Assembly (NCBI RefSeq): GCF_000003605.2
Contig: NW_003124893.1
Location: 336,487 to 363,790, forward strand
Reading direction: 5' to 3'
DNA length: 27,304 nt
From: Saccoglossus kowalevskii
Taxonomy: Eukaryota > Hemichordata > Enteropneusta > Harrimaniidae
Below, piece by piece: positions 3,137 through 27,304 of the stretch. Within the stretch, counting starts at the first letter, position 1; every line of letters begins with the position of its first letter. Below the pieces are notes generated by a model that had not been told where the DNA came from, ran no database searches, and worked only from the letters and a program-made list of their open reading frames with translations. A program made the translations under genes and the position numbers.

Positions 3137-3357
3137 ACACCATTGCTATTTATCGCGCCCTCTTTTGGCAGAACGTTACTGTGACGTCAAAATGAAGATG
3201 AAGGCAATGTCGTTGAATAGGAAACTGGATTTGGATGTATAGTCTTTCGCAATACGATCTTCTTTAATGTACGACTACAATACGAAACGATATCGACGCT
3301 TAAAGTGTTCACGTCCTGGAAGTCATTCGTTACTAGAGAGCGCAGTTCATGAAAAAA
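3137..3357. mobile_element. Small inverted-repeat DNA element, copy A of the GCGCCCTCT family
   Basis: The left part reads ACACC...TCGCGCCCTCT and the right part ...CTAGAGAGCGC, which are imperfect inverted repeats. The interior shares several words in the same order with 15688-15950: GTGACGTCAAAATGA, GG(C)(A/T)ATGTCGTT, ATATCGACG, and a 3' edge GCGCA..T..ATGAAAA. The two copies are clearly diverged. Length and structure suggest a non-autonomous DNA transposon; no transposase is present. Outer borders are approximate because no target-site duplication could be fixed. Confidence 0.6.
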
Positions 3358-4351
3358 AGTATGGACATCATTTTATCTGATTTATAATTTTCTCGAAAAA
3401 AAATAAAACGTATTGTCTTCAAACTAGATAAATAAAGTTGAATAATCGTAATTTGTCCTCCATAACATAGTATGGATTATATAATCCCATTTTAAAGACA
3501 TCTAGGCAACTTTTGAAGTGAACTTTGAAGTTATGAAAGTCAATTAATTTACTTAATCGTATATAATCCAGTATTTGAGTTTTTAATTGTTGTTTTTTTG
3601 GTCATCTTTACGGCTAATATGTTTGGATATTATAACTCATTCAATTGTCAGCCAAGGCACACATGATATTGGCAACATCTGGACATGGTCTATCTGTATT
3701 TCAATCCGTGTGCTATCATTGCTAGCATAGATATACGTAACTTAATTATGATCATTTGCACAAAGTCATGAGTAGTAAACAAAACAAAAAATAAGTGTAA
3801 AATGTTTAAAATCACTGATAAATATAATTTAATGTTTTCATATTGGGGCTCTGGCTTATATACTAATGTTGTTCTTTTCACCCACAATCAGTATACATGT
3901 TGTTATCCATAATCAGGGCAACCATTCTCAACGCAAAATTTGATAAACAGCCTTAGTATAAAATAAGAGAAGAGTTTTTTTATTGGAAATATGTCATACC
4001 ACAGATTTCTGTTATTGATTGATAACATTCCACTCCTTTGAAAATGTAAAATACAGGAAAAATAGTACAGGGGAAAGGTTTACTAAAGGATGGTTCTCTT
4101 AAAGAGCACCAAAGCAAACTCCTTTGGAATATAGGCAACATGCAACTGCCTACTCCACGCTCAAGCTCTCGGTAACGTGATATAATTCAAAGAAGTCAGA
4201 TAAATTGTACGTATGTACCTAACCTACCATATATTGGTGATAGAAATACAGGAACATTCACATCACACCACAGAACTATGTGGTCGAATGAATGGCTAAA
4301 CTGACACATGTATATTGGTAGAATAATTACCCATTATTATATTTAATGAGC
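3358..4351. other. AT-rich intergenic DNA, nothing recognised
   Basis: There is no convincing exon, domain or structured repeat. The minus-strand open frame at 3690-3887 is hydrophobic by composition but has no splice or family support. Confidence 0.5.
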
Positions 4352-4755
4352 GTCGGCAAGCGGTATTTTCGTAAGCTGAAATCAATTGTTTTTATTTCCG
4401 TAATAATGTAATTTAAATAAATAAAAAAATGTAAATTCGTAGACATGGGCAAGGTGTAAAATGTAATCAGTTATTTTATTCGTTCGTAATTTGTACAAAG
4501 ATCGTTTTTTGTAAGCGTGTGAAGCATTTTCCACATTAAATGTCGTAATTCGTATGCAATTTCCAATTTTGATTCTTAAACTCAAATTATGAAAAATATT
4601 ATAAAAATATAAAATGTAAATAGGAATTTGCTTTATCTGTAAAGTGTAAACCCCAATTTTTTACTGTAAATGGAACTTTCATTTTATTTCCTGTAAACAC
4701 GTAAAATGCTGTTTTTTCCCTATAACATGTACCAGATACCCCTTTGACCCCCTCT
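4352..4755. repeat. GTAA-word-rich repeat, copy A
   Basis: This ~400-bp unit matches 5295-5704 in the same orientation, starting at GTCGGCAA and ending near the C/T-rich end after TGTAC. The word GTAA, nearly always preceded by C or T, occurs about 15 times on the plus strand. Conserved blocks include AATTCGTAGACATGGGC, TAATTTGTACAAAGATC and AATGTCGTAATTCGTA. It carries no open frame of note. It could be a non-coding mobile element or a segment built from degenerate short repeats. Confidence 0.75.
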
Positions 4756-5294
4756 TTAATGTCCACGTGAGTACAATGTGGTAAACTGCTAATGAAGTCG
4801 GAATGAATATTCATCAAAACAAAACCATTGACAGTTTCAATGCTGAGAGTACATAAATAACAAAACGATCGAGAAATATCAAAATAATTTACTTGTGAAC
4901 ATGTAGATGTGCTTTTAAACATGAATTCAATAATAGTGATCACGCAAAAAAGATAAAACGGTCCACATATATCGTCTAGGTACGACGATAGTTAATAAAC
5001 ATTCGATTCAAGTTGACACATCTTAACAAGCACCACTGGATTACTGCCCTCTATTGATGACTTATGTCTCATCCACCGTTTACTACAGATGGCGCTGTTA
5101 GCTACACCTACATGGTAACTGGAAATTTGTTGACGCAAACCTCGTTCACTAAATTCACACTGGCCAATCAGAATGTAACATGGTAACGAGTCGTTGATCG
5201 CTGTGACTTCTGACGAATCACATATGTTGGTATGCAAATCAGTGACGACAACTTGCATCACATGAGATAACCAAAGGGGTTTCTTCACTTGAGG
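4756..5294. other. Unique spacer between the two GTAA repeats
   Basis: About 540 bases separate the copies. Minus-strand open frames at 4599-4943 and 4992-5288 have no recognisable motif. No terminal inverted repeats bracket the pair convincingly. Confidence 0.45.
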
Positions 5295-5704
5295 GTCGGC
5301 AAAGGATTATTTTCGTAATCTGTAATCAATTGTTTTTATTTTCGTAATAATGGTATTTAAATAAATAAAAAACGTAAATTCGTAGACATGGGCGAGTTGT
5401 AAAATGTAATTAGCTATTTTATTCGTCCGTAATTTGTACAAAGATCTTATTTTTGTGTAAATCAAAAGCATTTTCCAAATTAAATGTCGTAATTCGTACG
5501 CAATTTTCAATTTTGATTCTTAAACACAAATTATCAAGTATATTATAAAAATGTAATTAGGAATTTGCTTTGTTTGTAAAGTGTAAAAACCTATTTTTTA
5601 CTGTAAATGGAACTTTCAATTTGATATCCAGACCTGTAAAAAACGTAAAATGCATTTTTTTATTTCCTGTAACCTGTACTAGCTTTCCCCTTGCTCCCTT
5701 CTCA
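5295..5704. repeat. GTAA-word-rich repeat, copy B
   Basis: This is the second, diverged copy of the unit at 4352-4755, with about 16 GTAA words in some 400 bases. Differences are spread as point changes and small indels, so the duplication is not recent. A retroelement-like fragment begins about 100 bases to the right. Confidence 0.75.
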
Positions 5705-5802
5705 CTGAACATTGCGTAGTTCCTAGACACATTCTTTCATTGCCTCGAAAAGTTTTTTTTTTTAAATTGAACGGGTCTTAATTTATTTTTTCCAATAGAT
5801 TC

Positions 5803-9647: not shown

Positions 9648-9720
9648 ATGATGAACACCGTGTCACTGTTGTTTGGATTTTTGTTGGTCGTACTTTTACC
9701 ACCGTACACGGAACAACAAG
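9648..9720 (+). CDS. Exon 1: signal peptide of the pseudoprotease
   Basis: Two adjacent ATGs (9648 and 9651) open a frame of 24 residues with a short polar start, a hydrophobic core (LLFGFLLVVLL) and a polar end (PPYTEQQ), as in a secretory signal. It ends at CAAG|GTAAGA, a strong donor in phase 1. The first ATG has G at -3 and the second has A at -3, so either could be used. The link to the protease exons is inferred from strand, signal peptide, promoter and lack of another gene between them. Confidence 0.7.
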
Positions 9721-12700
9721 GTAAGACTACACCGCATTCGCATCGGATTCTCGGATTATTAGAACTTGAAGTTTAGTGTACACAAATATGTATTTTGGTT
9801 AAAATGCTTTGTGCAAACACACAGATCCGTCTTTCATACAAAGTTTGATCGTAAATGTCAGTTTAGTGTATAGCATTATAGACAACGGAGTTGTTAATTA
9901 TATGAAATTGAAGAGCGGTGACTGTCACGTGACGTTCGACATGGGTCCCACGCGACGTTTAGAACGCATGTCAAATAAATTGTTTGTTTACTCAAAATTC
10001 TAACAAATCAATGTACGTAAACATAACGGTTAGATAGCAAAACTACAAATCTACGAAACAGTGTTCAAAGTTACCATGTTTACGCAATAGAATGAGTGTT
10101 ATGCCATGCACCAGCGCTAATAGTATGTATTATGTTAAGGTAGAAAAGTCTACTCATGATTTCACAAACCCAGAATTTATTCATTTCCCAATAAATTGTG
10201 CATCCGGGCAATATAAGGATATTGACCAGCTTAATTTTCCCGAAAATGATGATTTTGTTTTAGTGAATAATGGCCATTTTGGCAGCATTATAGTGCTTTT
10301 ACCATGGGTCCCGATGGCAGAGATATTATGCCATATCTCAAATTGTAGCATGGTGACGTAGGCTGAAAAAATTATATATTGTCATATATTATATATTTAA
10401 AAATTCTGGGTTTTAAAAAGTGTCAAAAAATGCAATTTTTTTAACACTGTATTCTATGGTACTAGTTCTAAAAATAGCATTTTTTGCAAAATAATAGGAC
10501 AAGTTTCTCAAAATACGTCACTGTAAAACACGAAAAAATGTTATTTCATGTTGCCATGGGCCAATAGTTCCGTGTTTTTACATAATAAACAAGAAAACAT
10601 TGTCATGCGATTTATGACCAATTTTCTCAAAAATTATGATTAGGCTTCTACCTTAAACTGTATACGTTATCAGCTCTTAAGTTACAAACGCATTGTAATA
10701 AGTTTGTTTCTGTTTCATCCTTTCGCTTTGATATTTGTTCGTTTTGGTATAATGTTTCATCTTTTTTTTTACCCATTCCTTGTAATCGGTTATGTAGTTG
10801 CGTATTTACATGATGCTTCGTCATTTTGTTTTATAAAACGCCAGCCTCGTTTTAAACGTTTTTTTTAATGCTTGAATGGCAGTTTTATATATTCCTAGTA
10901 TCATATTTTGAAAGGTATTACAACAACATGTTATGTTTCATTTAAATCTGGCATTTACTGTCACTTTAAAACTTCACAAATTGCGTGAACAAGTTACAGA
11001 TGACCTGGAATGACACCAAAAACGTAATCAACGTAACTTCCCGGTGTGAAAAGAAGCTTCAGATGTCGCGCGGAAGGCCGTGGTTCATGTAAGATTTGTT
11101 AGTGACTTCTGTTATTGATAATAGTGTTGCAACCTGTTTCAAATGTACAATAATAATCAAGCTACAAAACGCTTTGAATGAGTTCTTGGTGTTCACGTCA
11201 CGGTAACGACTAAATTAAGTTTACTCACCGCATCTCCTTTAATGTGTCGCCACGCCTATCACATGATGCCGGCAAATCCGTTCTTTTGGTTTCTCGCATG
11301 GATGTAGTGTTTCGCACCAAATCTTATTTGAAAAACTTCACTACCCCGCCTTATTTTCAAGAACTCTGCGAATATACACGGCAACATTCGGAAGTTTTAT
11401 TATTTTTCTCATCTCAGTTGATCGACAATTGTGTTATGGATGTGGCACAAGTAAACTTTCAATTTATTTACACGTTATTAAATCAGTCAATCGAATAACT
11501 CGTATTTTCATTTTTTTTTTGAATAAGAATTCATGTGCCCTGACAATGTGAAAACTTGTGTTCTTTGTTGCATCATTTACAATAATAGGTGATTTTCCGT
11601 ACAATTGCGAGATCTCGCGAGATGCATGAAAGACGCGCGTCGAACGTCTGCCGCAAAAATCGAACGATTTGATTTTGAACTAGAATTTCTTTATTTCGTA
11701 GCTTACATTGACCGGCCGATCTTCGACAGAGGAATATTGCTTCCGAATAACCTTACTTAATCGAAATTGCCTATCATCAAATGTGGACAGCACATTATTA
11801 AGCATGGAAATGTCCCCCAAAATACTTTCGCGTTTGTCGAATCCCACGCGATGTTTGACGCCACTACGACGCTATGACCTTTGTTTGTCCTGTTGTTACG
11901 TTCGATTTCACGCATAACGCGTGATTTTCGCAGTGTACGGAAAATGGTCTATTGAGCTACTAGTATCTCAAACAATTGTTGGTCTAGCAACTTGAATGTG
12001 TTACCACACAAGTAACTGCTGTAAAATCATTTATTTTTGCTATTTTATAAAGGATGATTGAGGAAAATAAAATCCAGTGAAAATACTGTTTTCCTATATT
12101 TACATTCAACTGATGAACAAACACTGAAAATGAACTTCAAAAATGGCCAAACTGCAAGTGTCGTTTTTGCAACAAATAAAATAATTCCAGAAAACACAGT
12201 GTTGTACAGTATTATTAGATCACCTGGTTCTTTTCCCTAGTTCATAAATGCTTCCGTGTACTGAACGAATAATACTCACAGTATAACATACGATTGCGTC
12301 AGTGCAGAATGTGGAATTGATCACATGCACACGAGTAGTTACGCGAGATGAGAACACATCTATCCGTGTCCACGTACTGTACTCACCATCATAGGTCGGG
12401 CGAGGACGTCGCAATATGTTAAACTGTGAAAATAAATTAAGAATTTTCAGCAATTTAAAACAAATTTGTTATGAGACATGTCCTCAGTAAACATAGTAGT
12501 TCAAATCATACAGGTATCTAACATACTACTCCCAAAGCAAATGTAATGTATTCCTGGTGGGAAAATGCAGCAGAAAATAAAACGTACTTTCATATACTTT
12601 CTTTACATCTGTCGAATATGACGAATTAGTATAAAAAACCCTGTTTGATAAAACCAATGCTAGTCGGTTTCCAATCACTAAAATGACGCTTATATCTATA

Positions 12701-14631
12701 TAATGAAATAATTCGTGTCTTGGCAAAACTTTGTATCGAGTGTATTATCTAGTGTAAGTATTTTTAGTATCTATTACTCTGCGCATGTCTTTATCAAGTG
12801 TTACACTGATTTGTATGATCCATGATCCATGTCTGTAATTATTTTGTTTTTCCACCCCTTTGGATTAGTGACGGTTTCCCCGAGGAATGGAAATAATAAA
12901 TATAATTTAATAATGCTGTCTCATACTGCATGTTGATGAATACATTGGACACGAAAAAAAAAACGTGTCTTTTGTGACACGCAGTTGAGTATTCCTCCCA
13001 TGAAACAATGACATTTCGTATTGCGCTGATTGTTTTAATACGTGCAAAAAACATTTCTTGCATATGTGTGCCAGTGTTATTAATTTTTCATCGAACGAAT
13101 ATTATACAGTGAGCTGCAAAACAATATTCATATTTTAGGATAAATTATAATTTAATGTGGTCTTTACAGCAAGCGCAAAAAGGATTCGTACAGTTGGCGA
13201 ACTCCCTTGGAAAGTAACTATGAATATTGCAATATAGGGAGGGACTTTGTTATTGACGCTATCCAATGATCTAATGTTATAAAAACGATTTTCTAATTTT
13301 TGTGAAAATCTCACTTCCCTTGGCGCCACTTGTTTAATTAATTTTGTCTAGGTACGTAATATGGACATGTTAAGATCTGTTTTCATATTACAATATTGTT
13401 GTATCTAAACAAAGGCGTACAAATATTATTTGCAGTCGTATTGCCGTCTGGGGGAAGTCGATGCGGTTATACATTGATAAGGACCCCAGGGAAGTTACAA
13501 GATACCCGTACGGAAATTCGATTGCGTCCGCTATAAACATGTCATATCAAACAACAATATATTCATCCATATTGCATCTTTAATTGCACAAGGGCAGTAA
13601 ACCAGTAATTTAAACAGAAAAACAATATGTGTTCTCCAAACAAAATGGCGACCGATTGGCAGCTACATCAATCATTGAAACGTATAGCTACATTTCTGGC
13701 TATTAATCAAATAAATAACATGCTCGTAGAATGTGTAAACACAATTCGGTCACAATGCAGACATGCGGGCAACTCTGAGTTGTTAAGCTCACAGTATAGT
13801 TTACATAATTATGTTACCATGGAAACCAAATGATTTTTGTTATCTGCGTCGCATATAGCGGCAGCAGTGAATATAACTAAATAACAAGCGTGAACGTAGC
13901 TAGCAACTCCTGAACACACAGTGGTGGAAATCTGATGATTTAAAAATTGAATAGTCAATGTTATTAAAATTATTGTAAATTATTCGCGTTCTTATGGCAA
14001 CTTAAGATTTGTGACCATTTGAATTTGAGGGGGGGGGGAGTGGCTTAGAACTTTTCAAAAAGCCTTGAAGTTTTGAAAAAGTAGATCCTGCACAGTGAGT
14101 ATGCATATCTTATCTTACAGATTTACAAGTTATGAATTAATGAACTGAATAAAATATCCCGCCGTAATCGACCATGCGCCCCCTCCCTGGGTATAATTAG
14201 GCTTTTTTGTTTTAATTATCCCCTTATTGATGCGTTTGTTTTTTTAGTTATTTTTATAATTTTATTTACAGCCATGGTTGGACATAATCGCTGTATTCAT
14301 GCCTTCTCTGATTAGTTGACTAATCTGTTTAGACCTTTTAGCGTTCGTTGTCAGAAAAGTAAAAAATAGAATTAAGAAGAAAGATTTGAAAATATAAAAT
14401 AAAATAATNNNNNNNNNNNNNNNNNNNNNNNNNNNNNNNNNNNNNNNNNNNNNNNNNNGGGCAAAGCATTTCGAAGCGTGTTGTTGGTGGAAGTGCAGTA
14501 TCAGATGTACATAAATGGTCATGGAGTGGAATTCTACAATATAATGGTGCAGATCTATGCGGAGTTACCTTGGTAGCAGATAGATGGGCTGTTACCAGCG
14601 TGCTGTGCATGTAAGTACAATAATCTTACAA

Positions 14632-14682
<51 letters not shown>

Positions 14683-14695
14683 ACAAACAAACAAA

Positions 14696-14786
<91 letters not shown>

Positions 14787-17700
14787 ATATACAAAGGTAA
14801 AAGGGGGTTTATTCCAACAGCAATCCGATACCCGAATATTAATATCATCTTCCATTGAATCATATAGATTACCATTAGCATAAGAATGGTCAAATATGTG
14901 AATTGAACTAAACCATTCACAACTAGGCTAGACCAAACCAGACCAGACTAGACCAGACAGGGCAGAACAACAGGACATATCACATACAAGTCAACATAAA
15001 GACCAGAATATATCAGACTAAACCAGATAGAGCAAAAGAAGACACACCCCATACAAGACCACACACCAGACCAGACCAGACCAGACTAGACCAGACCACA
15101 CTCGATATACTAGTATATTAAAATGTTGGATAAGAATAGACCATTAGATCAGTTTTGACTAAATTGGGCTAGACTAGACTAGATATACTGTGAGAGAGTT
15201 TACTGGACTAGGATAGGTGACTTGAAATAGAATAGAACACATTAGACTATATTAGATCTGTGCACAAATGCTCAATCACAGCTACTCTCATTATATAAAC
15301 CCTTATACTATACACAAATTACTGTATGAATACAGGGTGAATTGGAAGGACACGAGCGCGTTCTCTGTTGTATTCGGCAAGGGGGACGACACAGTAATGA
15401 GATCTTTCACCGTGGATGAAATACGAATCCATCCTAACTACGATGCCACGACATATGCCTACGACGCATGTCTACTAAAATTGTCGGCGTCAACAAGTGG
15501 TGACTTCACGCCGGTATGTTTGGTGGAGGATGACGTTGATTACGACAGTTTCAAAGAATGTTGGCTCACGGGATATGGCAGTACGTCTCCAAATAGAGGT
15601 GAGACATGCGTAGTACTGATTTATAGGCACTGATCTAAAGCTATCAGTTTTTATAATTACGAATAATATACCAGCCAGTGACGCAAAACACCGTTCCTAT
15701 AGCTTGCGCCCTCTAGTGACGGAGCGCTTTCGTGACGTCAAAATGACGTTATTGATTAAAGGCTATGTCGTTCAAATCGTCAACTGTGTTTAGTTGTGTA
15801 ACCATCGAGAATATAGTGAAATCTCTCGAACACGTGACCTTCATTGATGGGTGACTAAAGATTAAAGTTATATCGACGTTCTTAACGGTTCTCATATCAA
15901 CCGTTTACGTCATAGAGTGCCTCGTCACCAGAGGGCGCATTTATGAAAAGGGTCACGTGTATTCCATTTTGGCTCAAAAGTCCCTTGCATACAAACACCT
16001 AATTACACTGAGAACATAGAACACTTTCCCGAAGTTGTTGAAACCGAAATTGTCATCTAACTTTAAGACCACCGTATATTGGCTACTGAGTTGGATGACG
16101 TGAACATTTGTTAATTTGTAGAATGGCGGATGGCGGCCTTCATATAGTAAATATCGGTACTTATTTTATTATCACGTGCACGCCAGCAGACTATGATCTG
16201 CGTCACATGCTCATTATATCTACTGAAAACCTTTTAGCTCTAGTTCTCTAGAAAATCCTTGATTTAACTTAGACTTAGTGAATGGTATTAATACAAAACT
16301 AAAATTTTTCATTAAAAATTGTATCATACATACAATGATGAAGGATCCTGACAATGTTTATTTGGAATGCCTCGTAAATTACGTTATAGTGCCATCAAGA
16401 TTTGGAAAAAATAATCAGCCATTTTCATAGAAACAATAAACGTGTATTTACGACTTTACTGTAATATGGATTATTTATACACGAATTCACATATAACTAA
16501 CATAGTACTATGACCTGGTTAATTCTTATCCTATCAAGGTTACTATGGCAATCGACCTGAGCAGATTCACGAAATATTGTTATCGTTTGTTAGCAACAGC
16601 GAGTGCAGTAGCAGGTACGCACAGACGACTACGAGAATCACAGAACAGCACGTGTGTGTAGGAGGAGAACGAAGCAAAGGATATTGTTTTGTAAGTATTA
16701 ATAGTGTAATTTTGTTTTTGCTTTTTTGATTTGTTGAAATTACGTGGTTTTTGTGTATAATGCGTTGTATTGTGTTTGTATGCTGTGTATTTGCACTTGA
16801 GATAGTGATGCGAGAACCAGCAATTATGTTTACACTTGTTTTTTAATGATGATGAACTTTAACCAACATACTATTTTTAATTTATCGCATGATCTATGTG
16901 TCATGAATTAGTTTTCGCGTATCTGTTGTCCGACTTATTTAGCTGGTTACCAGTGAATGGCTGCGTTATATCTGTCATCATTTAGGCTCATGCCAGGTCC
17001 TGGACGGAACTTGACTCAGTGATTTGGAACTAATTACGATATAACCGTCGCCAACCGGACTAATTTCTGACGTTTGATATTTGCAGTTATTAATATAGTG
17101 AACGATTAATCAAAAGATATGACGTATCCAGTACTTAGTGTGATTGGCAAGTTGAATGTGTGAAGGTTACGCCTTAAGTCTTTAAACTTCTTTGTAATTG
17201 GTTAAGTTTTGATACGTAATAAATGGTCTAAGTCCTTGGTCCCGAAGAGAGCTCCACGAGGCGAGAGAGTCTTGGTCAGTCCGGGGCAGAGACCCCGACG
17301 AGGCAGTTTGCCTTGAGGACTTCTCGATGTGGCTAAAGACTAGCTATTGAAACGTATTTCGTTGTGTGCGTCTATTGACTTTCCCGGTTCGGTACCACAA
17401 GCAGACGTGATATAGAGACATATAAATTCCCCCTGACATATGACTGAACTATTTAAATACAACAACCTATTTCAGTTATATTTTCATAATTATATTGATA
17501 TCGCTGCAGACAAATTTCCCATTTATACCATCCTGAATGATAACAGTTTATGTATAGTTTAATCATTAAACCAAGGGATTTCAAGACCGTAGAATTCATG
17601 CACGTGTTACGAATATGCCTTTTTTGGTAGATGTAATGAGCTCGTTAAATAAGATCGCACTCTTATACAGATGACGTCATTGTCACTTTTCTGGTGTAAT

Positions 17701-20700
17701 GACTATAAATAAGGTTAATTTTTTAACATGTTTATGTTCTTAAAGATATATGTTTTTATCTCTTTTCACCTGACACTGGCTGTTATCACACCCGCCCCCC
17801 CCCCTCAGGATCCATAGGGGGCCGCATGCGCGTTCCCATATTCTCGGGAAAGAGGGTACTGTTTGAGATCTGTCTCGGGAACATTTTCCCGAGAAAATCG
17901 TAGAAAAGTGGGTGCATTTCAAAACACTTCTCGAGATATACAAAAAGGGGGATTTAAAAGGAGTTCTAGACTGAAAAGTTCCTAAATAGGGGTGAAATTC
18001 ATCGGAAAAGCCTGTGAAAGGGGGGGTGGTAAATTTTCTTATTTTCCCTAGATAGGGGGGGGGGTAAAAAAAAATGAGGGAACAAGCATAGACCCCCCTT
18101 AAATATAGGGAGTGGGGGGCCGGGTTATCACACTACTGATAAATGTTATCTGTATTGTATGAGAAGGTTAGGAAAATAAATATGTGTACGTCATATCCGT
18201 TTTGAGTTTCAAACATTTTCTTTATGAATTATGCTATTTTTCGGTTTTAGTTGTTTAACAATTGTGCATGAATTACAGCAGTTAAACGTAGTCGAGACGT
18301 AGTTGAACACAATGAGATTGAAATAATAGGAAACAAAAATGACGTTTTACAGACGGCCATCATGTGCTAACGTCGAAAGTAATAGTAAACTCTGTTCATT
18401 CAACAGGGGGACAGAGGTTCGCCACTCAGTTGTAAAACAGATGATAGCGGTCCATGGTTTCTCGCTGGCATTTTCAGCTTCGGATTCGGCTGCGGTTCTG
18501 GGTATCCCGATATTCTTACAAAAACATCTTCTGTTTATAGTGGGTTTCTCGAAAACGTTATTAATGGCGAGGATCCGGAATCAAGTATGTAAACATGTTC
18601 AGAATATCATCAAAAAACGTTTTGATTTTGATGAAACATATGTTTAGTCTCATTAACATTTAAATCTGGTATCCTGACAACAGATAGTTAATACCACATA
18701 CACATATCGTTAATCCTCCTGTCTGTTATTTATTACACAGTACAACATTCACGTTATAACATCATTTGTGCTTGACTTTTACAATGCGGCTTTATGTTAT
18801 GTTGTTGTTCAAAAATTAAAGTATGGTCACCAAACTACTTTTCAAGAAAATGGACCAAATTGCGATTTGACCGGGATATGAATACTATGTTAAAGATATT
18901 CATAAACATTGTGCTTTGTGACATGTGTTGATGATGGGTACTTATAATTGTCATAAATGTTTCGGAAATTCTGACGAATACTATTAATGTTTTATTCAAC
19001 GAGTATTTCTATGAAAATAATTCTAAAATACCAATACTATAATTATAAGCTGTTATACCTCCTTCCCAATTGCGAAACTTTTTAAAAACCTGTGTTAGAC
19101 ATCTAATTTATTAAAATATGTGCCAAGTACGCATGGTGGTTAGAAGCTATCCTTATTTCAGGAACTCTGGATTGCTATGATATGGAGGAATTCGCCTGCC
19201 AAAGTACACAGTGTATCTCTTCTGAATTTCGATGTAGTTCTACTATACCGTACTGTACTGATGGAGCCGACACCAAGTTCTGTGGTGAGTTGAATGTCTC
19301 TACCTTATCATGTTCAAAAGATCCCATGCATATGGTACATTATATAACACATTCGTACATCTATAATTAGAAGCAACCAAACGTAAATAAACGATTCTAC
19401 GCAACGCACTATTTTGTCTTTAGAAGCACCGACTTAAAATTAATCCAACCTAGGAAGATACGAGTACACATTTGAGAATATGTGCCTTTCGCTTGTACAA
19501 TCCGTGAATATTCGTATTTTGCGAGTGAATATTGAAGCACGTGTCACACCTATGAATAAAGTTGTGTTTGATTAAATAAAAGACTTGTTTAATCAAAGAC
19601 AATAGAAAGAGATCTTTCTATTGCCGTTGGTTTAATTGTCAGTTTGGATCTTTATAGTCGAAATGCATGGGCGTGGGAATTATCCTGTTAGATGCGTATT
19701 TACTCATTATACACTAATACGATCCACCAGCAATGATTGGATGGCCGTAGAAAACGGTGAAACTTTAGCCAGCCAAAAGACAAACTTTTGTTTTCTCACA
19801 TTAATGCAACGAGGGTTTATCCGTCAAATATAAGCAACCGAAAAATCAACGAATTTCAGGATTATACTGGTGTTTACCACTTTCTGGCAAAAAACACTTA
19901 AGTGATATGATCTTAAATCGATTGGTTAATGTATTGACAAACGTGTGAATTTAAACACAAACACACTTATTCTTATGCATAACAGCTCAAATTATGTATT
20001 TTACATTGAGTGAATTCCACCATACTAAGTTTCGGTTCATAGTTCATAAGTACCCTTACACCCCTTACCCTTACCACATTTACAGGTGACTCTGTAGAGC
20101 TGTTCAATCCTATCTATGGCAGCTCGTTTGATGATGTACCACGTGACATTTATTCACCAATCACGCTGGACAAATGTGCTGAAACGTGCCTGACATCTGA
20201 AGGCTTTATCTGTCACCACTTTGACTACAACCATGACACATCTACATGCAGACTGAGAGCTGAGAACTTTCTCGACGTCACACTCTCTGCGACCACAAGG
20301 ACCGACTTTCTCAGTTTGAAAAATTGTGGTGGTATGTATATTCTGCTTAGGTATTTATTTATTTACCTTTGGATTTCAGCGACAGATAAAATATGATGGA
20401 ACGGATTGTTTACACTTTGTTTTAGATCTTGTTATTGTTCTGAATAACGATGTGACGATTTCATCCTAAATGCCTATGTACTACTTCGTTGTCAGGTTGT
20501 AACCAAGTGATCGAAGGATGTCGAGATGGCATGGGATTGGGACTGTTTTCTAGTCCCAGATACTTTCTGTCTAACACACGGAGAAAACGGTGTTCTTTTA
20601 CTTTGAAAACCCCTGCCGGATCTAATATGGAGATTGAATTCAAACACATGTTTGATGACACAGATCAACCACAGTGTAAGTTCAACTGCAAATCACAGCT

Positions 20701-20866
20701 TTCAATCCGTCACCCGGGAAGCACCTCCAATCTGTTGGAATTCTGTCTGAATGGAACAAACATCCTCCCGACTACATTTGTAGTTCCCGCGAACGAGGTC
20801 GAAGTTGAATGGTTTACACAACGCCCTCAGATGTCGGGATTCATTGGGACGTTCAAAGCGATTTAA
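9648..20866 (+). CDS. Multi-exon gene for a secreted pseudoprotease: signal peptide, inactive trypsin-fold domain, LDLa, PAN/Apple, CUB
   Basis: The supported exons are 9648-9720, then (after a gap that may hide exons) 14459-14610, 15336-15598, 16539-16690, 18407-18584, 19162-19284, 20086-20331 and 20496-20866. From 14459 the phases join without a break into 494 residues. In order there is an activation site KR|VVGG (R7), a chymotrypsin-fold domain (residues 8 to about 243), an LDL-receptor class A repeat (253-289), a PAN/Apple domain (about 290-370) and a CUB domain (373-494). The family's His57 is Leu49 and Ser195 is Arg192; only the Asp (Asp94) remains. The cysteines expected for four protease-domain disulfides are present. 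I infer a secreted, non-catalytic binding protein. Plasma HGF is a known parallel, combining a PAN domain with a dead protease domain in the opposite order. The ligand and pathway are unknown. A poly(A) signal follows at 20951. Confidence 0.85.
9721..10134. other. Start of intron 1, nothing recognised
   Basis: The first 414 bases after the exon 1 donor contain only a 64-codon open frame (9809-10003) with no motif or splice support. Confidence 0.5.
10135..10656. mobile_element. 522-bp inverted-repeat element (MITE-like) flanked by TTAA, intron 1
   Basis: The left end TTAAGGTAGAAAAGTCTACT and the right end, whose complement reads TTAAGGTAGAAGCCTAATCA, are imperfect inverted repeats both beginning TTAAGGTAGAA. 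TTAA at both borders could be the target duplication of a piggyBac-type element, or TA with a longer TIR for a Tc1/mariner-type one. A diverged copy in reverse orientation lies at about 21298-21700, sharing AATTYTGGGTTTTAAAAA-like, CATGTT and GTGATTTATGG-like blocks. The 89-codon open frame inside (10092-10361) crosses the left border and is not a gene. Confidence 0.65.
11613..11622. promoter_or_regulatory. TCTCGCGAGA palindrome
   Basis: The exact 10-bp palindrome TCTCGCGAGA overlaps a second palindrome, CGAGATCTCG. In vertebrates TCTCGCGAGA is a known promoter motif. The next ~50 bases are rich in CpG (ACGCGCGTCGAACG). A regulatory role inside this intron is conjecture. Confidence 0.25.
12387..12422 (-). 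other. Possible 36-nt minus-strand microexon inside intron 1
   Basis: On the minus strand, TTTATTTTCACAG, a good acceptor with a pyrimidine-rich tract, ends at 12423. Exactly 36 bases follow, then ATG|GTGAGTAC, a near-consensus donor. Two of the three frames are open through it. No neighbouring minus-strand exon was recognised, so this may be a chance pair of splice-like sites. Confidence 0.2.
13436..13507 (+). CDS. Candidate exon 2: activation-peptide segment (tentative)
   Basis: A good acceptor (TTATTTGCAG) precedes a frame that continues phase 1 from exon 1 and reads VLPSGGSRCGYTLIRTPGK. A Cys followed by Gly upstream of the activation site is expected, because the protease domain keeps C112 (family C122), which normally pairs with a propeptide Cys. 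The 3' border is uncertain: the nearby GT sites at 13494 and 13508 are weak donors, and the frame stops at about 13534. It could instead be a pseudo-exon. Confidence 0.28.
13508..14408. other. Intron sequence before the assembly gap
   Basis: The stretch is AT-rich. It holds a run of about ten G near 14029-14038, and a good acceptor (TTTTATTTACAG) at 14271 followed by a frame with one Cys that stops after 14 codons and has no donor. No supported exon is present. Confidence 0.45.
14409..14458. other. Assembly gap of 50 N
   Basis: Exactly 50 undetermined bases lie immediately before the first protease-domain codons. The round number suggests a placeholder whose true length is unknown. The 5' splice border of the next exon, and possibly whole exons, may be hidden here. 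Confidence 0.98.
14459..14610 (+). CDS. Protease-domain exon with activation site and mutated His position
   Basis: Reading from GGG at 14459, residues 5-11 are SKRVVGG, a trypsin-like activation site with cleavage after R7. The core block LCGVTLVADRWAVTSVLC follows (C34 and C50). It aligns with the family pattern CGGSLI..RW.LTAAHC, and the catalytic His is replaced by Leu49 (codon CTG, two changes away from a His codon). The exon ends at TGCAT|GTAAGT in phase 2. Its left border lies in or before the N gap. The W-S-W-S segment after the activation site fits the usual WP.....L strand region. Confidence 0.88.
14631..14789. repeat. (AAAT)n microsatellite
   Basis: About 159 bases of AAAT/ATAA repeat, interrupted once by AAAC units around 14681-14695, begin 20 bases after the exon donor. 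Its reverse strand gives artificial Leu/Phe/Ile/Tyr repeat frames that are not proteins. Confidence 0.97.
14921..15190. repeat. Degenerate CCAGA/CTAGA pentanucleotide repeat
   Basis: The stretch is built largely of GACCA and GACTA words, densest at 14931-14960 and 15060-15100, with drifted spacer sequence and a tail of CTAGA words near 15170-15185. It looks like an old simple-sequence array eroded by mutation. Confidence 0.75.
15336..15598 (+). CDS. Protease-domain exon with the retained catalytic Asp
   Basis: The acceptor AATACAG|GGTG joins phase 2 from the previous exon and the donor AGAG|GTGAGA ends it in phase 1. It encodes residues 51-139, including IHPNYD and YDACLLKL, where Asp94 is the family's Asp102. 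C112 (family C122) and ECWLTGYG (C126, family C136) follow. An extra Cys, C96, sits two residues after the Asp and has no standard partner. The open frame upstream of 15336 is intron. Confidence 0.9.
15688..15950. mobile_element. Small inverted-repeat DNA element, copy B of the GCGCCCTCT family
   Basis: Inverted ends GCGCCCTCTAGTGACGGAG (15705) and, on the complement of 15921-15938, GCGCCCTCTGGTGACGAG lie about 230 bases apart. The same left-flank (ACACCRTTSCTAT) and right-flank (ATGAAAA) words occur in the copy at 3137-3357. It sits in the intron after the Asp exon. No coding capacity is seen. Confidence 0.7.
15951..16538. other. Rest of the intron before the third protease exon
   Basis: This is AT-rich intron with no recognised feature up to the acceptor CTATCAAG at 16538, which has a usable but weak pyrimidine tract. 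Confidence 0.5.
16539..16690 (+). CDS. Protease-domain exon ending at the edge of the active-site loop
   Basis: It joins in phase 1 and ends in phase 0 at TGTTTT|GTAAGT. It encodes residues 140-189 with VSNSECSSRY (C161, family C168) and ITEQHVCVGG (C178, family C182), both standard landmarks, then SKGYCF (C188, family C191). The specificity position equivalent to 189 is Gly186, not the Asp of trypsins, so the pocket would not select Lys/Arg even if the triad worked. Confidence 0.88.
16691..17229. other. Intron sequence, left part
   Basis: Nothing recognised. T-rich after the donor. Confidence 0.5.
17230..17322. other. GC-rich segment able to fold into a long hairpin
   Basis: AAGTCCT at 17230-17236 pairs with AGGACTT at 17316-17322. 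Inside, CGGGG pairs with CCCCG around a CAGAGA loop (17282-17297). The segment is notably richer in G+C than the intron around it. It lacks a recognisable tRNA B box and does not match a tRNA fold. It could be a small structured RNA or part of a mobile element. Confidence 0.4.
17792..18123. mobile_element. 332-bp G/C-tract-ended element flanked by 10-bp direct repeats
   Basis: GTTATCACAC occurs at 17782-17791 and again at 18124-18133, immediately bordering the segment, as a target-site duplication would. The ends are imperfect inverted repeats: CCGCCCCCCCCCTC on the left, and the complement of the right end starts CCGGCCCCCCACTC. The interior holds a perfect hairpin and several G runs but no open frame of note. 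A 9-10 bp duplication fits Mutator-like elements better than hAT (8 bp) or TTAA elements; the class is inference. Confidence 0.6.
17873..17894. other. Perfect 9-bp stem hairpin inside the 332-bp element
   Basis: TCTCGGGAA (17873-17881), a CATT loop and TTCCCGAGA (17886-17894) form a perfect stem. A further half-site TTCTCGGGAAA lies near 17841. Confidence 0.7.
18407..18584 (+). CDS. Last protease-domain exon; catalytic Ser replaced by Arg
   Basis: The acceptor TTCATTCAACAG opens the exon in phase 0 with GDRGSPLSC (residues 190-198), where the family has GDSGGPL.C. Ser195 is Arg192 (AGA) and Gly197 is Ser194. Landmarks that confirm the fold are C198 (family C201), WFLAGI, SFGFGCG (C218, family C220), YPDILTKTS and the C-terminal helix YSGFLENVI. 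The donor is TCAA|GTATGT in phase 1. A longer plus-strand frame at 18339-18647 is out of register and is a shadow. Confidence 0.9.
18585..19161. other. Intron between the protease and LDLa exons
   Basis: AT-rich sequence of 577 bases with nothing recognised; it ends in a clean acceptor (CCTTATTTCAG). Confidence 0.6.
19162..19284 (+). CDS. LDL-receptor class A exon
   Basis: A 123-base exon in phase 1 at both ends encodes one complete LDLa repeat with six cysteines (C253, C261, C266, C273, C280, C289) in the spacing C-x7-C-x4-C-x6-C-x6-C-x8-C. EEFAC, QCI and CTDGADTKFC match the family. Of the acidic calcium ligands, D282 and D285 are present, but the Asp after the fourth Cys is Ser and the Glu of SDE is Thr, so calcium binding may be weakened. 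LDLa repeats usually mediate protein binding outside the cell. Confidence 0.9.
19285..20085. other. Intron between the LDLa and PAN exons
   Basis: An 801-base intron. Apart from the hairpin at 19600-19623 there is nothing recognised; the open frame 19636-19833 has no motif. A C-rich tract (CCCTTACACCCCTTACCCTT) precedes the acceptor. Confidence 0.6.
19600..19623. other. 10-bp perfect stem hairpin in the intron
   Basis: CAATAGAAAG, loop AGAT, CTTTCTATTG. A shorter inverted pair, GATTAAA/TTTAATC, lies just upstream at about 19570-19594. It may be a remnant of an inverted-repeat element or a chance structure. Confidence 0.5.
20086..20331 (+). CDS. PAN/Apple-domain exon
   Basis: A 246-base exon in phase 1 at both ends, with acceptor ACATTTACAG and donor GGTG|GTATGT. 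The domain core is KCAETC, then FICHHFDYN, then STCRL, the four-Cys PAN pattern C-x3-C ... F-x-C-x2-F-x-Y ... C-x-L. A further Cys occurs near the end (KNCG). PAN/Apple domains bind proteins or glycans in plasma kallikrein, factor XI, plasminogen and HGF. The exon is exactly one module long. Confidence 0.85.
20332..20495. other. Intron between the PAN and CUB exons
   Basis: This is the shortest intron of the gene, 164 bases, with donor GTATGT and acceptor CGTTGTCAG. Confidence 0.8.
20496..20866 (+). CDS. Terminal CUB-domain exon with stop codon
   Basis: The exon joins in phase 1 and reads to TAA at 20864-20866, adding residues 373-494. CUB landmarks appear in order: a leading Cys and a glycine-containing segment, SSPRYF (the family's SP.YP), RCSFTLKTPAG, EIEFKHMF, then LLEFCLNG, VEVEWFT and the terminal SGFIGTFKAI, which matches GF.A.Y-type endings. 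One sequon (NGT) lies at about residue 460. CUB domains are extracellular beta-sandwiches used in protein recognition. Cys number and spacing depart from the four-Cys standard, so it is a divergent member. Confidence 0.85.
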
Positions 20867-21198
20867 GAACGGCCATTTGCAATCTGATTTACATGAGACA
20901 CGTTGTCTATTTATTTAATTATACATTTAAATTTTAACAAACGAGTGTTCAATAAACTATTAACATACATATTAATTTCTCAGCCGATTACGCTCATCGA
21001 TATTACACTGCGGATTGGAACGCCGTATAAAAGATAGAAGGTGATCATGCTCATAAGCATACACGTGGCGAGAGTATGTCGATATTTTCATTTCCTTATT
21101 CACGTTTAAAAAAAAAATACATCGACACTTTAATCGATGTTTTACCGTCCATAATTTAGATTATGTAATTGTAGAATAGACACCATCACCATGCATAT

Positions 21199-21200: not shown

Positions 21201-21268
<68 letters not shown>
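21201..21268. repeat. (AT)n microsatellite, about 34 units
   Basis: An uninterrupted AT dinucleotide run of about 68 bases. Confidence 0.98.
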
Positions 21269-23122: not shown

Positions 23123-24532
23123 CTAGGTTACAAATGCAACAATACTGTCAATCTTAACAAAACAATCACCGAGGTTCGTTATGCTTAGCGTGTGATGACC
23201 AGCAGAAACGTTTTCATCAATATGCACTTTTGATCTTTTCACTGATAACTTATTGTCTAACTTAAAACTTAAAAGACAAGGGGAAGCTTGTGATAAGAAT
23301 ACCGCAAATGAAAAATTTGAACGTCTATAGGACTGAATATCAAACTGGAATTCAATTGAAGCATTTGCTTTCTTGCAAACCCAGAATCCCTTAACATCTC
23401 TTCGCTGAATGCCTGACATGTGTACTTCTCCATACTTCCAGTCTTTTATGCTTGACGGTTTTAGATCGTGATCTGCACTGTTGCTGAGTATGGGTGTATA
23501 AGAAGATTTCAATGTGGACCAACACTGCGAATGTAAAATTGTTACAGATTCAAACAATGGTGGAGTATGTAATAATTTGGAGGAAACGTTTCTTCGCTCA
23601 CTCGGCGTGCGTCGATTTGAAATTGTTAGATTTTGTAATGCATCAACGAGAAGGTACCGAACAAAGACGGCCACCATGTCGTGTGCCTTTGTGGATGGAT
23701 GTTTTCGAGTGTCACTATGAACCCATAAGTCACTAGCATTGTTCATTTTTATAAGAGGACACACGGCTTGTGTCTCACTGATGGATGGAATGTCATAGTA
23801 TTCACTTAATGGAACACTGCCACTTTGTTCATTTGTCCGACAGTATTGTGCATTAATCATGTCGCCTTTGATAAAATTAATGTAAATTAGCTGTGGGGTA
23901 TTCGGAAGTGACATCACATATCGCGTCAGATCTTCCTGTCCATTTGGACTTTCACCATTGTCATTGACTGCAAACTCCCAGAAGAAAATATCAACATTGT
24001 TTGTATCAATAAATCTATTTAAACATAGAAGACACATCTTGCTATTCAGTGCCCCTACTGCCCCATTTCTGACATTGACTTTGATCCTCAACAGCCTTTG
24101 CAATGATTTTGCAATGTCGTATACATAAACGTCTTTCCATTTATCCAACCCACCGCCAGCAGAGATAGATCCTCCAAGTACACCAAGTGTTAATGCTCTG
24201 CCTGTGAGTAAGACGTCTTGAAAAATATCAACCATTCTTTCTGTTGACGTTTTGTGAGCCAGTCCCATATAAAGCATTTCATCTGTTATTCCAAGTTCTT
24301 TTCTCTTGACTTCCAACATCGAATGTTCCGCGGAAAGAACCAATTCCAGCTGCGTGAGTTGTTCTTCAATTGTTGTGTGCACACCCTTGGCTCCATTATC
24401 GTCAAATTCTTTGGGAGGTACCCATACTGTGTGTTTCAATTCAACACTGACTTGCAATTGAATAGCAACATATAACATTGCAGACGTGCATGTTACTAAG
24501 AATATAACAATCTTGAAACAGTCAGACATCAT
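23123..24532 (-). CDS. Type II membrane SGNH/GDSL-like hydrolase, 469 residues, uninterrupted coding exon
   Basis: A short N-terminus and a hydrophobic segment (about residues 6-24) suggest a signal anchor with the body in the Golgi lumen or outside. The SGNH blocks are visible: block I TLGVLGGSISAG with Ser122 as nucleophile, a block II-like NGAVG (156-160), block III EFAVND with N190, and block V DTRKHPS with D274 and H278. The spacing D-x3-H is one residue longer than the usual D-x2-H. Residues 320-469 form a Cys-containing, beta-rich-looking tail of unknown role. There are six N-glycosylation sequons (N265, N301, N315, N390, N406, N441). By family it would cleave an ester, such as an acetyl group on a glycan or lipid, but the substrate is unknown. 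The coding part has no intron although the neighbouring gene is finely split. Two ATGs open the frame; I took the outer one. Confidence 0.82.
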   Translation of the reverse strand: MMSDCFKIVIFLVTCTSAMLYVAIQLQVSVELKHTVWVPPKEFDDNGAKGVHTTIEEQLTQLELVLSAEHSMLEVKRKELGITDEMLYMGLAHKTSTERMVDIFQDVLLTGRALTLGVLGGSISAGGGLDKWKDVYVYDIAKSLQRLLRIKVNVRNGAVGALNSKMCLLCLNRFIDTNNVDIFFWEFAVNDNGESPNGQEDLTRYVMSLPNTPQLIYINFIKGDMINAQYCRTNEQSGSVPLSEYYDIPSISETQAVCPLIKMNNASDLWVHSDTRKHPSTKAHDMVAVFVRYLLVDALQNLTISNRRTPSERRNVSSKLLHTPPLFESVTILHSQCWSTLKSSYTPILSNSADHDLKPSSIKDWKYGEVHMSGIQRRDVKGFWVCKKANASIEFQFDIQSYRRSNFSFAVFLSQASPCLLSFKLDNKLSVKRSKVHIDENVSAGHHTLSITNLGDCFVKIDSIVAFVT

Positions 24533-24534
24533 GG

Positions 24535-24983
24535 CTGAAATAAATAATGACGTTGTTTAGCCCACAATCAAGTAATTGATAAAAGATTACTATATTAAAG
24601 GGCGGTGGCCGGCGCACCGCGTTCTGTCGGATATGGGACTCATAGCGACGTGCAAACACGTGTAATATACATTGTTTGTTTACTTGAAATTTGAACACGT
24701 CCTTTAAAATCTGTTTATTGCATTGTCTTACGGATTCAACCGGAGTACTACAACTAATCTGGCTTTAATCTGGAGCATAAATTTCTACATCCAGTTTCAA
24801 TATCCCGATTTCATAGTTCAACACCTCATTAGTCAATATTATAAATACATCTTGAAAATCCATATTTTACTTTAATTTTGGACTTAATAATAACATCCAA
24901 TGCGGAGGTATAGCAAAACATGCATGAAACAATACATTTTCTTATTCATGTGTATGGCAAATAGGCATTTGGCAAGGACTCAC
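24535..24983 (-). other. Predicted 5'UTR intron of the SGNH-hydrolase gene
   Basis: On the minus strand, TTATTTCAG|CC ends two bases before the start codon, a good 3' splice site. Upstream, CTCCAG|GTGAGTCC at 24984/24983 is a near-perfect 5' splice site, giving a 449-base intron. A second perfect donor, AACAG|GTGAGTGG, lies at 25386/25385. The intron would contain the TTAA-flanked element at 24595-24707. Confidence 0.5.
24595..24707. mobile_element. 113-bp TTAA-flanked element, internally deleted copy
   Basis: The left end TTAAAGGGCGGTGGCCGG and the interior ATGGGACTCATA...GTGTAA.ATACATTGTTT and GAACACG match the element at 25579-25712. The right inverted repeat is mostly missing, and the copy closes with CCTTTAA. 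It is flanked by TTAA on both sides. Confidence 0.6.
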
Positions 24984-25871: not shown

Positions 25872-26916
25872 TTAACACTCTTAAGTTCTTTGGAGCCGAT
25901 ATGAACTTTTAAACGTAGTTAACAAGAGTAAATTACGTGTTTTTAGCGTTCAAATTATTAATTGAAATAAGGTCTCATATACGTAAATTCACAACAACAA
26001 ACGTTCAAAGTAAGCAAACAGAGTACCAAGCAGAAATATTCTGCTGACATCCCGAATTATACTCTACTATCTTCTTTGCATATACGTTTCTAGTATTTTA
26101 AGAAATAAAATTTGAATTGCAAAGCCCGATTTGTGGCGTCAATTGGCGTTTGATATATAAAGCAAGAATCTTCCACCAGGGGAAATTAATACATCAAAAT
26201 GAACTAATGATGAATAAAAACACATCACAAAATGTTTTGGAATTGTTGGCGCTTCAGCACGTGTAAAATAAACTAATTTGCAATTTCCGTTTTGACCATT
26301 CACGTTGACTAAGCTGATGTTTGGAGAAGAAAACACGTTCATATGGACATAAGCTAAATGTTAAAGTTTTGTCATTTGAATATATCATTTGCAGGGAATT
26401 TTGTGGAGTTTCAAATGTACTTGCCATGCAGTGGTGTGATAGATGCCTAATTCGAGAACAATGTTAGTGATGATTGTACGACGGGGTACAAGTATGTGAC
26501 AAAGTTATAGCACAGCGATCTAATGGTTATTTAGTGGTGTTATAAGGATGTTGTATTTTCAAATATCCATAACAATAGGAAGAATTTAAAAGAGCTACAC
26601 TGAAGAAAAACAAATTTGTTATATGATGAAATTTATTTGTCTAACGACGTGTTCGTTGGGCAGACCCAAATCATCTGTAGATGTATAGTTTTTTTTTCAT
26701 GGGGGGGGGGGGGTCTTTTGAGGGCATTTAGAAAGTCCTGTCAACAATTCTCAGCACAAAAGTTGAACTGGTAAAAGGGCAATCATTTCCTTATTTTTAA
26801 ATGGAATATGATATGAAACCTTATGAATATCAAAAACATCATATAACCAAAAAATCTAATGACAGACACCGTGTTCCAGAAACATAAATGAACAGTATGT
26901 TTATTTTCACTTTTTA
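25872..26916. other. AT-rich DNA, nothing recognised
   Basis: Includes a run of 13 G at 26701-26713 preceded by a T run. The small open frame at 26139-26342 has no motif. Confidence 0.5.
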
Positions 26917-27304
26917 TTTGATCCTTTAGCCGAACCCAACCATGCTGTTTTACTAGCACGGCCATAACGCATATTGGGATCTTTCCTTTTGCCCTGATAA
27001 GATAACCATGTCCAAACACATCGAGACGTGTGCCAAGTTTGAAGGGGCTGGCTATTTTTCCATTGTTGTTATATTGCGAAAATTTACAGCGTTGCCATGA
27101 CATATGACCTGGAAATATAATCAACCGTGCCACATTGGGAACATGTGTGTCAAGTTTGAAGGGGCCGGCTATTTTTCCATTGTTGTTATATTGCGAAAAT
27201 TTACAGCGTTGCCATGACATATGACCTGGAAATATAATCAACCGTGCCACATTGGGAACATGTGTGTCAAGTTTGACAATGCTGGCCATTATTACCAAAC
27301 GCTT
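26917..27304. repeat. 117-bp tandem repeat reaching the window edge
   Basis: CAAGTTTGA starts at 27034, 27151 and 27268, a period of 117 bases. The first two full units are nearly identical, differing at about one or two sites, and the third is cut off by the edge and already diverging. The 117 bases before 27034 look like a more diverged unit (shared ACATNNTGGGA, GTGTG-like words). Because 117 is a multiple of three, the minus-strand frame stays open and yields a repeated 39-residue pattern; this alone does not show it is coding. Confidence 0.85.

Follow-up and report, generated by a model that had tools for sequence, protein, structure and literature searches.

Trypsin-fold (S1) domains that have lost catalysis act as cofactors or ligands in animals, and they usually stand last in the protein. 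Does Saccoglossus kowalevskii encode a protein in which such a domain comes first, followed by its accessory modules, and what might such a protein do? The question is raised by a locus in a stretch of 27,304 nucleotides from this hemichordate (contig NW_003124893.1, assembly GCF_000003605.2; C1728:336487-363790), which is referred to below as the window. An original prediction, made from the sequence of the window, had joined exons of this locus into a signal peptide, an inactive S1 domain, and LDLa, PAN/Apple and CUB modules. We call the locus gene A. A search of the genome (572,110,611 bases in 4830 contigs) identified a second copy, gene B, on contig C2596, which presents the same modules in the same order with the same intron phases.

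Structure of gene A

Seven exons on the forward strand (E2 to E8) join without a stop codon into a 494-residue product that includes S1, LDLa, PAN and CUB in this order. This agrees with the predicted in-frame joining and product length; the junction of the first exon (E1) lies in an assembly gap. GT or AG was found at every readable exon border, and the introns following E2 to E7 are of phases 2, 1, 0, 1, 1 and 1. The features are listed below in window coordinates; arrows mark the exon end at a splice donor or the bond cut at an activation site.

9648..9720, + strand: E1, probable signal-peptide exon (MMNTVSLLFGFLLVVLLPPYTEQQ), with phase-1 donor AAG↓GTAAGA
14409..14458: assembly gap of 50 N, masking the E2 acceptor and the predicted propeptide cysteine
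14459..14610 (5' border in the gap), + strand: E2, end of the propeptide (GQSISKR), activation site R↓VVGG, Cys42, Cys58, Leu at position 57
15336..15598, + strand: E3, S1 part with Asp102 kept, Cys104, Cys122 and Cys136
16539..16690, + strand: E4, S1 part with Cys168, Cys182, Gly189 and Cys191
18407..18584, + strand: E5, S1 part with GDRGSPL (Ser195 to Arg, Gly197 to Ser, Asp194 kept) and Asp226, phase-1 donor
19162..19284, + strand: E6, LDLa module with six cysteines and 1/4 acidic Ca2+ ligands (Pfam and alignment to 2m0p)
20086..20331, + strand: E7, PAN/Apple module (Pfam PAN_1, 33.8 bits alone; also recovered by the genome-wide family search)
20496..20866, + strand: E8, CUB module and stop codon, 0/3 acidic Ca2+ ligands (Pfam and alignment to the C1r CUB)
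20951..20956, + strand: AATAAA, probable polyadenylation signal 3' of the stop codon

A long simple repeat, (AATA)40, occupies 14630-14789 in intron 2 and starts about 20 bases past the exon at the assembly gap.

The 494-residue product was searched against Pfam. The Trypsin profile (E = 4e-35, 122.1 bits, profile 6-216 of 220) and PAN_1 (E = 1.6e-6, 28.3 bits, cut-off 21.4) both pass, CUB passes only when the module is searched alone (24.5 bits, cut-off 21.4) and LDLa stays below its cut-off. LDLa is the weakest module call of gene A; it retains all six cysteines and aligns to LDL receptor family modules of solved structures with weak E-values (0.054 and up). No kringle was found among the Pfam matches of gene A, NCBIfam gave no match for its S1-LDLa part, and neither Rfam nor a tRNA scan returned anything for the window.

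A predicted inactive S1 domain with zymogen features

Residues of the S1 domain were read from alignments to plasma kallikrein and TMPRSS6, in chymotrypsin numbering. Both genes present the S1 fold, gene B with 109 bits over profile positions 10-218. In gene A, His57 is replaced by Leu and Ser195 by Arg, Asp102 is kept, and Gly197 is Ser. In gene B, the corresponding replacements are Gln at 57, Ala at 195 and Ala at 197, and Asp102 is again kept. Neither gene possesses the full triad (His57, Asp102, Ser195) of an active S1 peptidase. Both combine an S1 fold, replaced triad residues and an open frame, and they classify as serine protease homologues (SPHs). Judged by these residues, the S1 domain of gene A is predicted to be catalytically dead, in line with the inactivity claimed earlier, and the same applies to gene B.

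What had not been pointed out is that the elements of zymogen activation are kept. Gene A retains Asp194, Cys122, the activation site KR↓VVGG (Arg15-Val16) and all eight cysteines that form the standard S1 disulfides. Positions 189 and 226 of its S1 pocket are occupied by Gly and Asp, respectively, and these two residues, together with an odd Cys104, are common to A and B. The Gly189/Asp226 pair has a named insect case, honey bee SP36, which is tabulated as GGD (PMC1761132).

A second copy on contig C2596

The 494-residue query yielded 23 matches in the genome: seven were the window itself, six lay on the minus strand of C2596 and ten were elsewhere. Five of the six C2596 matches fall within gene B and the remaining one is a PAN exon upstream of it; E4 and LDLa of gene B were not among these matches. 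When the seven exon pieces were aligned by tblastn to 50 kb of C2596, all seven were placed in the same order and on the same strand. Their coordinates, all on the minus strand of C2596, are given first from tblastn and then as defined by splice sites.

E2: 415472-415335; 415507-415336
E3: 415024-414782; 415025-414772
E4: 413943-413827; 413945-413797
E5: 412609-412430; 412609-412429
LDLa: 412215-412096; 412217-412098
PAN: 410329-410090; 410337-410092
CUB: 409021-408692; 409050-408683

All six intron phases are identical to those of gene A, the frame is open over 496 codons (494 in gene A), and no N runs occur within gene B. Identity between the two genes amounts to 112/233 in S1, 18/41 in LDLa, 30/82 in PAN and 51/119 in CUB (37-48% per module). 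The LDLa module of gene B passes its Pfam cut-off (27.6 bits) and its PAN module scores 26.4 bits. There is also a weak match to DUF1986 (17.2 bits, cut-off 25.2), a family linked to nudel. The two predicted genes form a family of at least two members in this genome.

The second copy bears directly on whether two neighbours, one coding for an S1-only homologue and the other for an LDLa-PAN-CUB protein, might have been falsely joined. Reading past the E5 donor meets a stop soon in both genes (after two extra residues in gene A), and intron retention or early termination would yield an S1-only form. However, intron 5 of gene B is just 211 bp long and contains neither AATAAA nor ATTAAA, and that of gene A (18584-19162) contains no AATAAA, with ATTAAA at 18815 and 19110. 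We reject a false joining as hardly credible, since the complete order recurs in gene B with identical phases. The original prediction of one gene rather than two is upheld.

Constraint, cysteines and calcium sites

Across 482 aligned codons, genes A and B differ at codon positions 1, 2 and 3 with frequencies of 0.386, 0.351 and 0.651. The proportion of differences is 0.80 at synonymous sites (pS, saturated) and 0.37 at nonsynonymous sites (pN), with a pN/pS ratio of 0.46 (bootstrap 0.40-0.52). By module, pN is 0.345 in S1, 0.364 in LDLa, 0.422 in PAN and 0.367 in CUB. All four modules, the dead S1 included, have changed relatively more at silent sites, which indicates that selection maintains the proteins. 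With this ratio and with both frames open over their full length, a decayed pseudogene was rejected.

Gene A has 27 visible cysteines, or 28 with the predicted propeptide cysteine, and the mature product of gene B has 24 (25 minus one in the signal peptide). Four cysteines of gene A, three in KNCGGCNQVIEGC and one in KRC, are missing from gene B, as expected if two disulfides had been gained or lost jointly. Both genes share S1 Cys104 (in E3) and an extra CUB cysteine (in E8; CKFNC in A, CPLC in B), which have no known partners in the usual disulfide schemes. It is possible that these two form an interdomain or intermolecular bond.

The states of the Ca2+ ligands were read by eye from the alignments. 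In LDLa, 1/4 acidic ligands is kept in gene A and 3/4 in gene B, and the complete Ca2+-binding cluster is absent. At the Glu-Asp-Asp set of CUB, gene A has Thr, Ser and Gln opposite the C1r residues and gene B has Pro, Ala and Glu, so that 0/3 are kept in each. The loss of most acidic Ca2+ ligands of LDLa and CUB in gene A is a second feature beyond what had been noted before. A Ca2+ ligand motif of CUB is named in the text of PMC10850435.

The 5' ends of the two genes

E1 was recognized by three features: an ATG, a run of hydrophobic residues and a phase-1 donor. At the thresholds set, the plus strand of the window offers no other candidate of this kind (two in-frame ATGs, one exon), and the minus strand has one. 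In 300 Markov sequences modelled on the 5.4 kb that precede E2, such candidates arose at 0.003 per sequence. There are 67 plus-strand frames of at least 35 residues between 5000 and 14400, ten of which were chosen by eye and scanned with Pfam. In none of the ten did an extra N-terminal module reach a curated cut-off or an LDLa appear before S1, and the two best matches were at chance level (13.7 and 12.9 bits). Because E1 is the only plus-strand candidate, because so few are expected by chance, and because none of the ten frames matched a family above its cut-off, E1 is likely the signal-peptide exon of gene A.

Cys122 is usually bonded to a cysteine of the propeptide. No such propeptide cysteine can be made out in E1 or in what can be read of E2; since Cys122 is present without a visible partner, a propeptide cysteine was predicted to lie inside the gap. 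The predicted cysteine was then observed in gene B (DCGTQ...). There, a candidate signal exon (MRYILSLVGGLCLFLTPTTA, C2596 416621-416561, phase-1 donor) lies 1.05 kb before E2 and splices straight to the S1 exon, and the predicted mature start is DCGTQTGYSETRKR↓VAGG, propeptide cysteine included. A further module hidden in an intron or in the gap of gene A is unlikely, given the ten frames without a family match and the short, gap-free distance in gene B.

Upstream of gene B, the minus strand of C2596 (427167 and 431404-433126) carries a PAN exon (39.5 bits), followed by a hydrophobic stretch, and two candidate signal exons. We did not assign this PAN exon (C2596:431404-431601) to gene B: it lies about 15 kb before the signal exon of gene B, and one of the candidate signal exons (433126) could serve it separately. 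Perhaps these exons encode membrane PAN proteins that adjoin a PAN-bearing pseudoprotease.

Module order elsewhere in the genome

Profile searches of the whole genome with Trypsin, PAN_1 and CUB gave lists of 106, 52 and 150 matches, respectively (for CUB, 150 of 402 candidates scored). Module order was compared for loci on contigs that appear in both the Trypsin and the CUB list, with A and B added from the search with the 494-residue query, using the nearest same-strand CUB within 30 kb of each S1. The 150 listed CUB matches do not include the CUBs of A and B, and gene B is absent from the Trypsin list; other diverged copies may likewise have escaped, and the counts are lower bounds. At least nine S1 loci have a same-strand CUB within 30 kb. 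The CUB precedes S1 in seven of these nine and follows it solely in A and B. On C2182, one CUB stands between two S1 loci and was assigned to the nearer, which it precedes; three more S1 loci on the compared contigs have no CUB in range. Among the matches listed, PAN_1 was found on 33 contigs and Trypsin on 27, and only the contig of the window is in both. For LDLa, the loci read give a mixed picture: on C1652 (L022), two LDLa modules come before an S1 with GDSGGP, and on C2346 (below) LDLa-like frames come after one.

Other S1 genes of the genome have the same exon cuts on the Trypsin profile as this four-exon S1, for example on C2601 (1-46, 48-133, 137-177 and 177-220). Further S1 exons with altered triad motifs are found at 4653-5782 of locus L018 (C2174) and at 2641-5354 of locus L019 (C1270), with GDNGGP in L018, DTGSS in L019, and the motifs LTEALC and SSAKC. 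By these motifs, the genome seems to contain additional SPHs.

What the proteins may do

We propose, with a probability of roughly 0.45, that the locus is one gene for a secreted, non-catalytic SPH (signal peptide, propeptide, S1, LDLa, PAN and CUB) that would serve as a cofactor in an extracellular cascade. The protein would be secreted in a zymogen-like form, and another trypsin-like or dibasic-cleaving protease would cut it at KR↓VVGG (A) or KR↓VAGG (B). Packing of the new N-terminus against Asp194 would order the loops around the dead site. This site could then bind, but not cut, a partner, be it an active protease, an inhibitor or a receptor. The propeptide would stay tethered through a Cys1-Cys122 disulfide, and the LDLa-PAN-CUB tail would anchor the protein to a surface or within a complex. 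The most likely use would be to assist, as a cofactor without catalysis of its own, an extracellular cascade of proteases, for example in defence, clotting or the egg coat. A bolder formulation, which we find not very likely, treats A and B as a family of protease-first mosaic pseudoproteases. The dead S1 would still be a switch, cut at KR↓V(V/A)GG by a protease of the cascade and acting via Asp194, that turns on partner binding, and the tail, mostly without the usual Ca2+ ligands in gene A, would hold the protein in place; this would be a logic similar to that of HGF in the opposite order.

Several points weigh against the cofactor proposal. Sequence cannot separate a cofactor from a ligand or a binding protein. 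The E1-E2 join of gene A is unreadable in the 50-N gap at 14409-14458, and the signal exon of gene B is the nearest of four distinct candidates over 20 kb, obtained with looser thresholds. Two modules of gene A score below their cut-offs: within the whole product, CUB reaches 20.9 bits (cut-off 21.4) and LDLa 16.2 bits (cut-off 24.1), and LDLa searched alone still reaches just 23.1 bits. The CUB of gene B reaches just 14.2 bits, yet its aligned identity to the CUB of gene A is 44%. Retention of Asp194 and R↓VVGG could reflect an inherited need of the fold rather than a working switch. The constraint between A and B could partly predate inactivation, and activity could have been lost independently; because A and B differ in their residues at 57 and 195, the share of constraint that followed inactivation cannot be read from the comparison.

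The rarity of the arrangement is also qualified by a locus on contig C2346 (L024-L026, 264763-282728, minus strand). There, an active-looking S1 (GDSGGP) is closed by a phase-1 donor, and about nine LDLa-like frames stretch behind it from 279.8 to 268.8 kb; a further S1, also with GDSGGP, comes after them at 266.6-264.8 kb, and all lie on one strand. Perhaps this is a nudel-like S1-LDLa-S1 gene, that is, a polyprotease outside arthropods, or perhaps two neighbouring genes. A and B may therefore not be alone in having S1 before LDLa; S1 before PAN and CUB stays as odd as it was. As for origin, an S1 cassette, arranged in four exons as in ordinary S1 genes and bounded by phase-1 introns, was probably placed in front of LDLa, PAN and CUB exons that are likewise of phase 1. 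The front half of A and B could have come from a nudel-type S1-LDLa gene of this genome.

Other functions are conceivable for the same architecture. A cleavage-activated, non-enzymatic ligand of the HGF/MSP type with rearranged modules, whose dead S1 would bind a receptor after the cut, would share with HGF a dead S1 with a kept activation site (KR↓VVGG and Asp194) and a PAN module. The opposite order, the missing kringle, and the presence of LDLa and CUB, which HGF is not known to have, speak against such a ligand, which we consider improbable. To a similar degree we doubt a pathogen-binding (pattern recognition) protein or an inhibitor-sink decoy, in which the S1 fold would absorb serpins or foreign inhibitors or the modules would bind microbes. 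A secreted-type mosaic with binding modules would suit either role, and other altered-triad S1 exons exist (GDNGGP in L018, DTGSS in L019), but the pocket is altered (Gly189, Asp226) and the acidic Ca2+ ligands are mostly lost in the LDLa of A and in both CUBs. A covalent serpin decoy is disfavoured in particular: Ser195 is Arg in A and Ala in B, and covalent trapping is not expected because this serine is gone.

A reproductive-tract or egg-coat binding protein, derived from an ovochymase- or proacrosin-like S1-CUB protease that lost its activity, would bring A and B near to proteins already described. As far as their architectures are given, S1 is followed by C-terminal CUBs in OVCH2 (PMC10850435), in HrProacrosin and in HrOvochymase, one of whose protease domains lacks the typical triad (PMC9265791). 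Against this descent, A and B have LDLa and PAN in between and a single CUB, and the S1-then-LDLa locus on C2346 suggests another source; we regard it as rather unlikely. A conserved two-gene family with the dead domain first, the cleavage site intact and the modules behind makes it possible to test cleanly whether a zymogen switch can survive the loss of catalysis. Genes A and B also show how an S1 cassette with phase-1 bounds can reach the front of a mosaic. Their practical value is modest at present.

Other features of the window

An intronless frame of 477 residues lies at 23123-24556 on the minus strand. It has no match in Pfam or NCBIfam and a weak match to a solved GDSL-like protein (1.1e-5). 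Against the genome it gave 34 matches including itself, many in long open frames, and two more are on the same contig (62% and 58%). These similarities place it in an expanded family of putative SGNH/GDSL-like proteins. A claudin/PMP22-like frame at 671-1063 on the minus strand (Claudin_2, 29.1 bits, at the cut-off) is probably the first coding exon of a tetraspan gene. A 117-bp unit is repeated 2.1 times at 98% at 27028-27276, inside an open frame (26783-27304, minus strand) that leaves the window and is probably not coding. An (AT)34 simple repeat is located at 21201-21268.

Comparison with known systems

The exact order S1-LDLa-PAN-CUB was not found in the listed titles and abstract starts of the open-access literature, outside of which most subscription journals lie; databases may well contain proteins predicted with this order that have drawn no comment. 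The claim that the order is unusual holds for S1 before CUB, which, at the sensitivity used, was seen in two of the nine listed loci. It does not extend to the protease-first order as such, for which ovochymase, proacrosin, nudel and perhaps the C2346 locus are precedents.

C1r, C1s and MASP carry their CUB modules before S1. Like A and B, they and the CUB-S1 proteases of this genome combine CUB and S1 in one locus, but with CUB first, whereas CUB follows S1 in A and B. HGF and MSP have an N-terminal PAN module and kringles, and a C-terminal dead S1 whose activation cleavage site is kept. Genes A and B resemble them in the dead S1 with its retained activation site (in gene A, KR↓VVGG and Asp194, as far as sequence can tell) and in the PAN module. 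They differ in that the order is reversed, kringles are lacking, PAN does not come first, and LDLa and CUB are added.

With SPHs in general, A and B share an S1 fold and an altered triad. In Tenebrio, dead S1 proteins make up 125 of 269 S1 sequences and, in the description given, regulatory domains are located in the propeptide and precede S1 (PMC11172050), whereas the modules of A and B follow it.

The ovochymase, oviductin and proacrosin group is secreted and has S1 in front and CUB behind, as in A and B. The CUBs of mouse OVCH2 are C-terminal (PMC10850435), ascidian HrProacrosin consists of S1 then two CUBs, and HrOvochymase, also S1-then-CUB, contains three protease domains, of which one lacks the typical triad (PMC9265791). 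Unlike A and B, with their single CUB and dead protease domain, these are working proteases with two or more CUBs, and no LDLa or PAN is named between S1 and CUB in the architectures reported there.

Nudel offers a second precedent. In the notation used for honey bee SP20/nudel, 3LDLA-SP-3LDLA-pSP (PMC1761132), LDLa follows S1 and one S1 is degenerate, as in A and B; unlike them, it contains many LDLa modules, and neither CUB nor PAN appears in the string given. A planthopper nudel-like protein is described with LDLa first and the protease last (PMC4085338). Gene A does not have several LDLa modules on both sides of S1, as nudel does, but one, after S1. The C2346 locus resembles A and B in its LDLa-like frames behind an S1 with a phase-1 donor, and this S1 has GDSGGP. 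Overall, the arrangement of A and B is real, conserved and unusual: its parts are known, and its order is partly precedented, with one precedent perhaps in the same genome.

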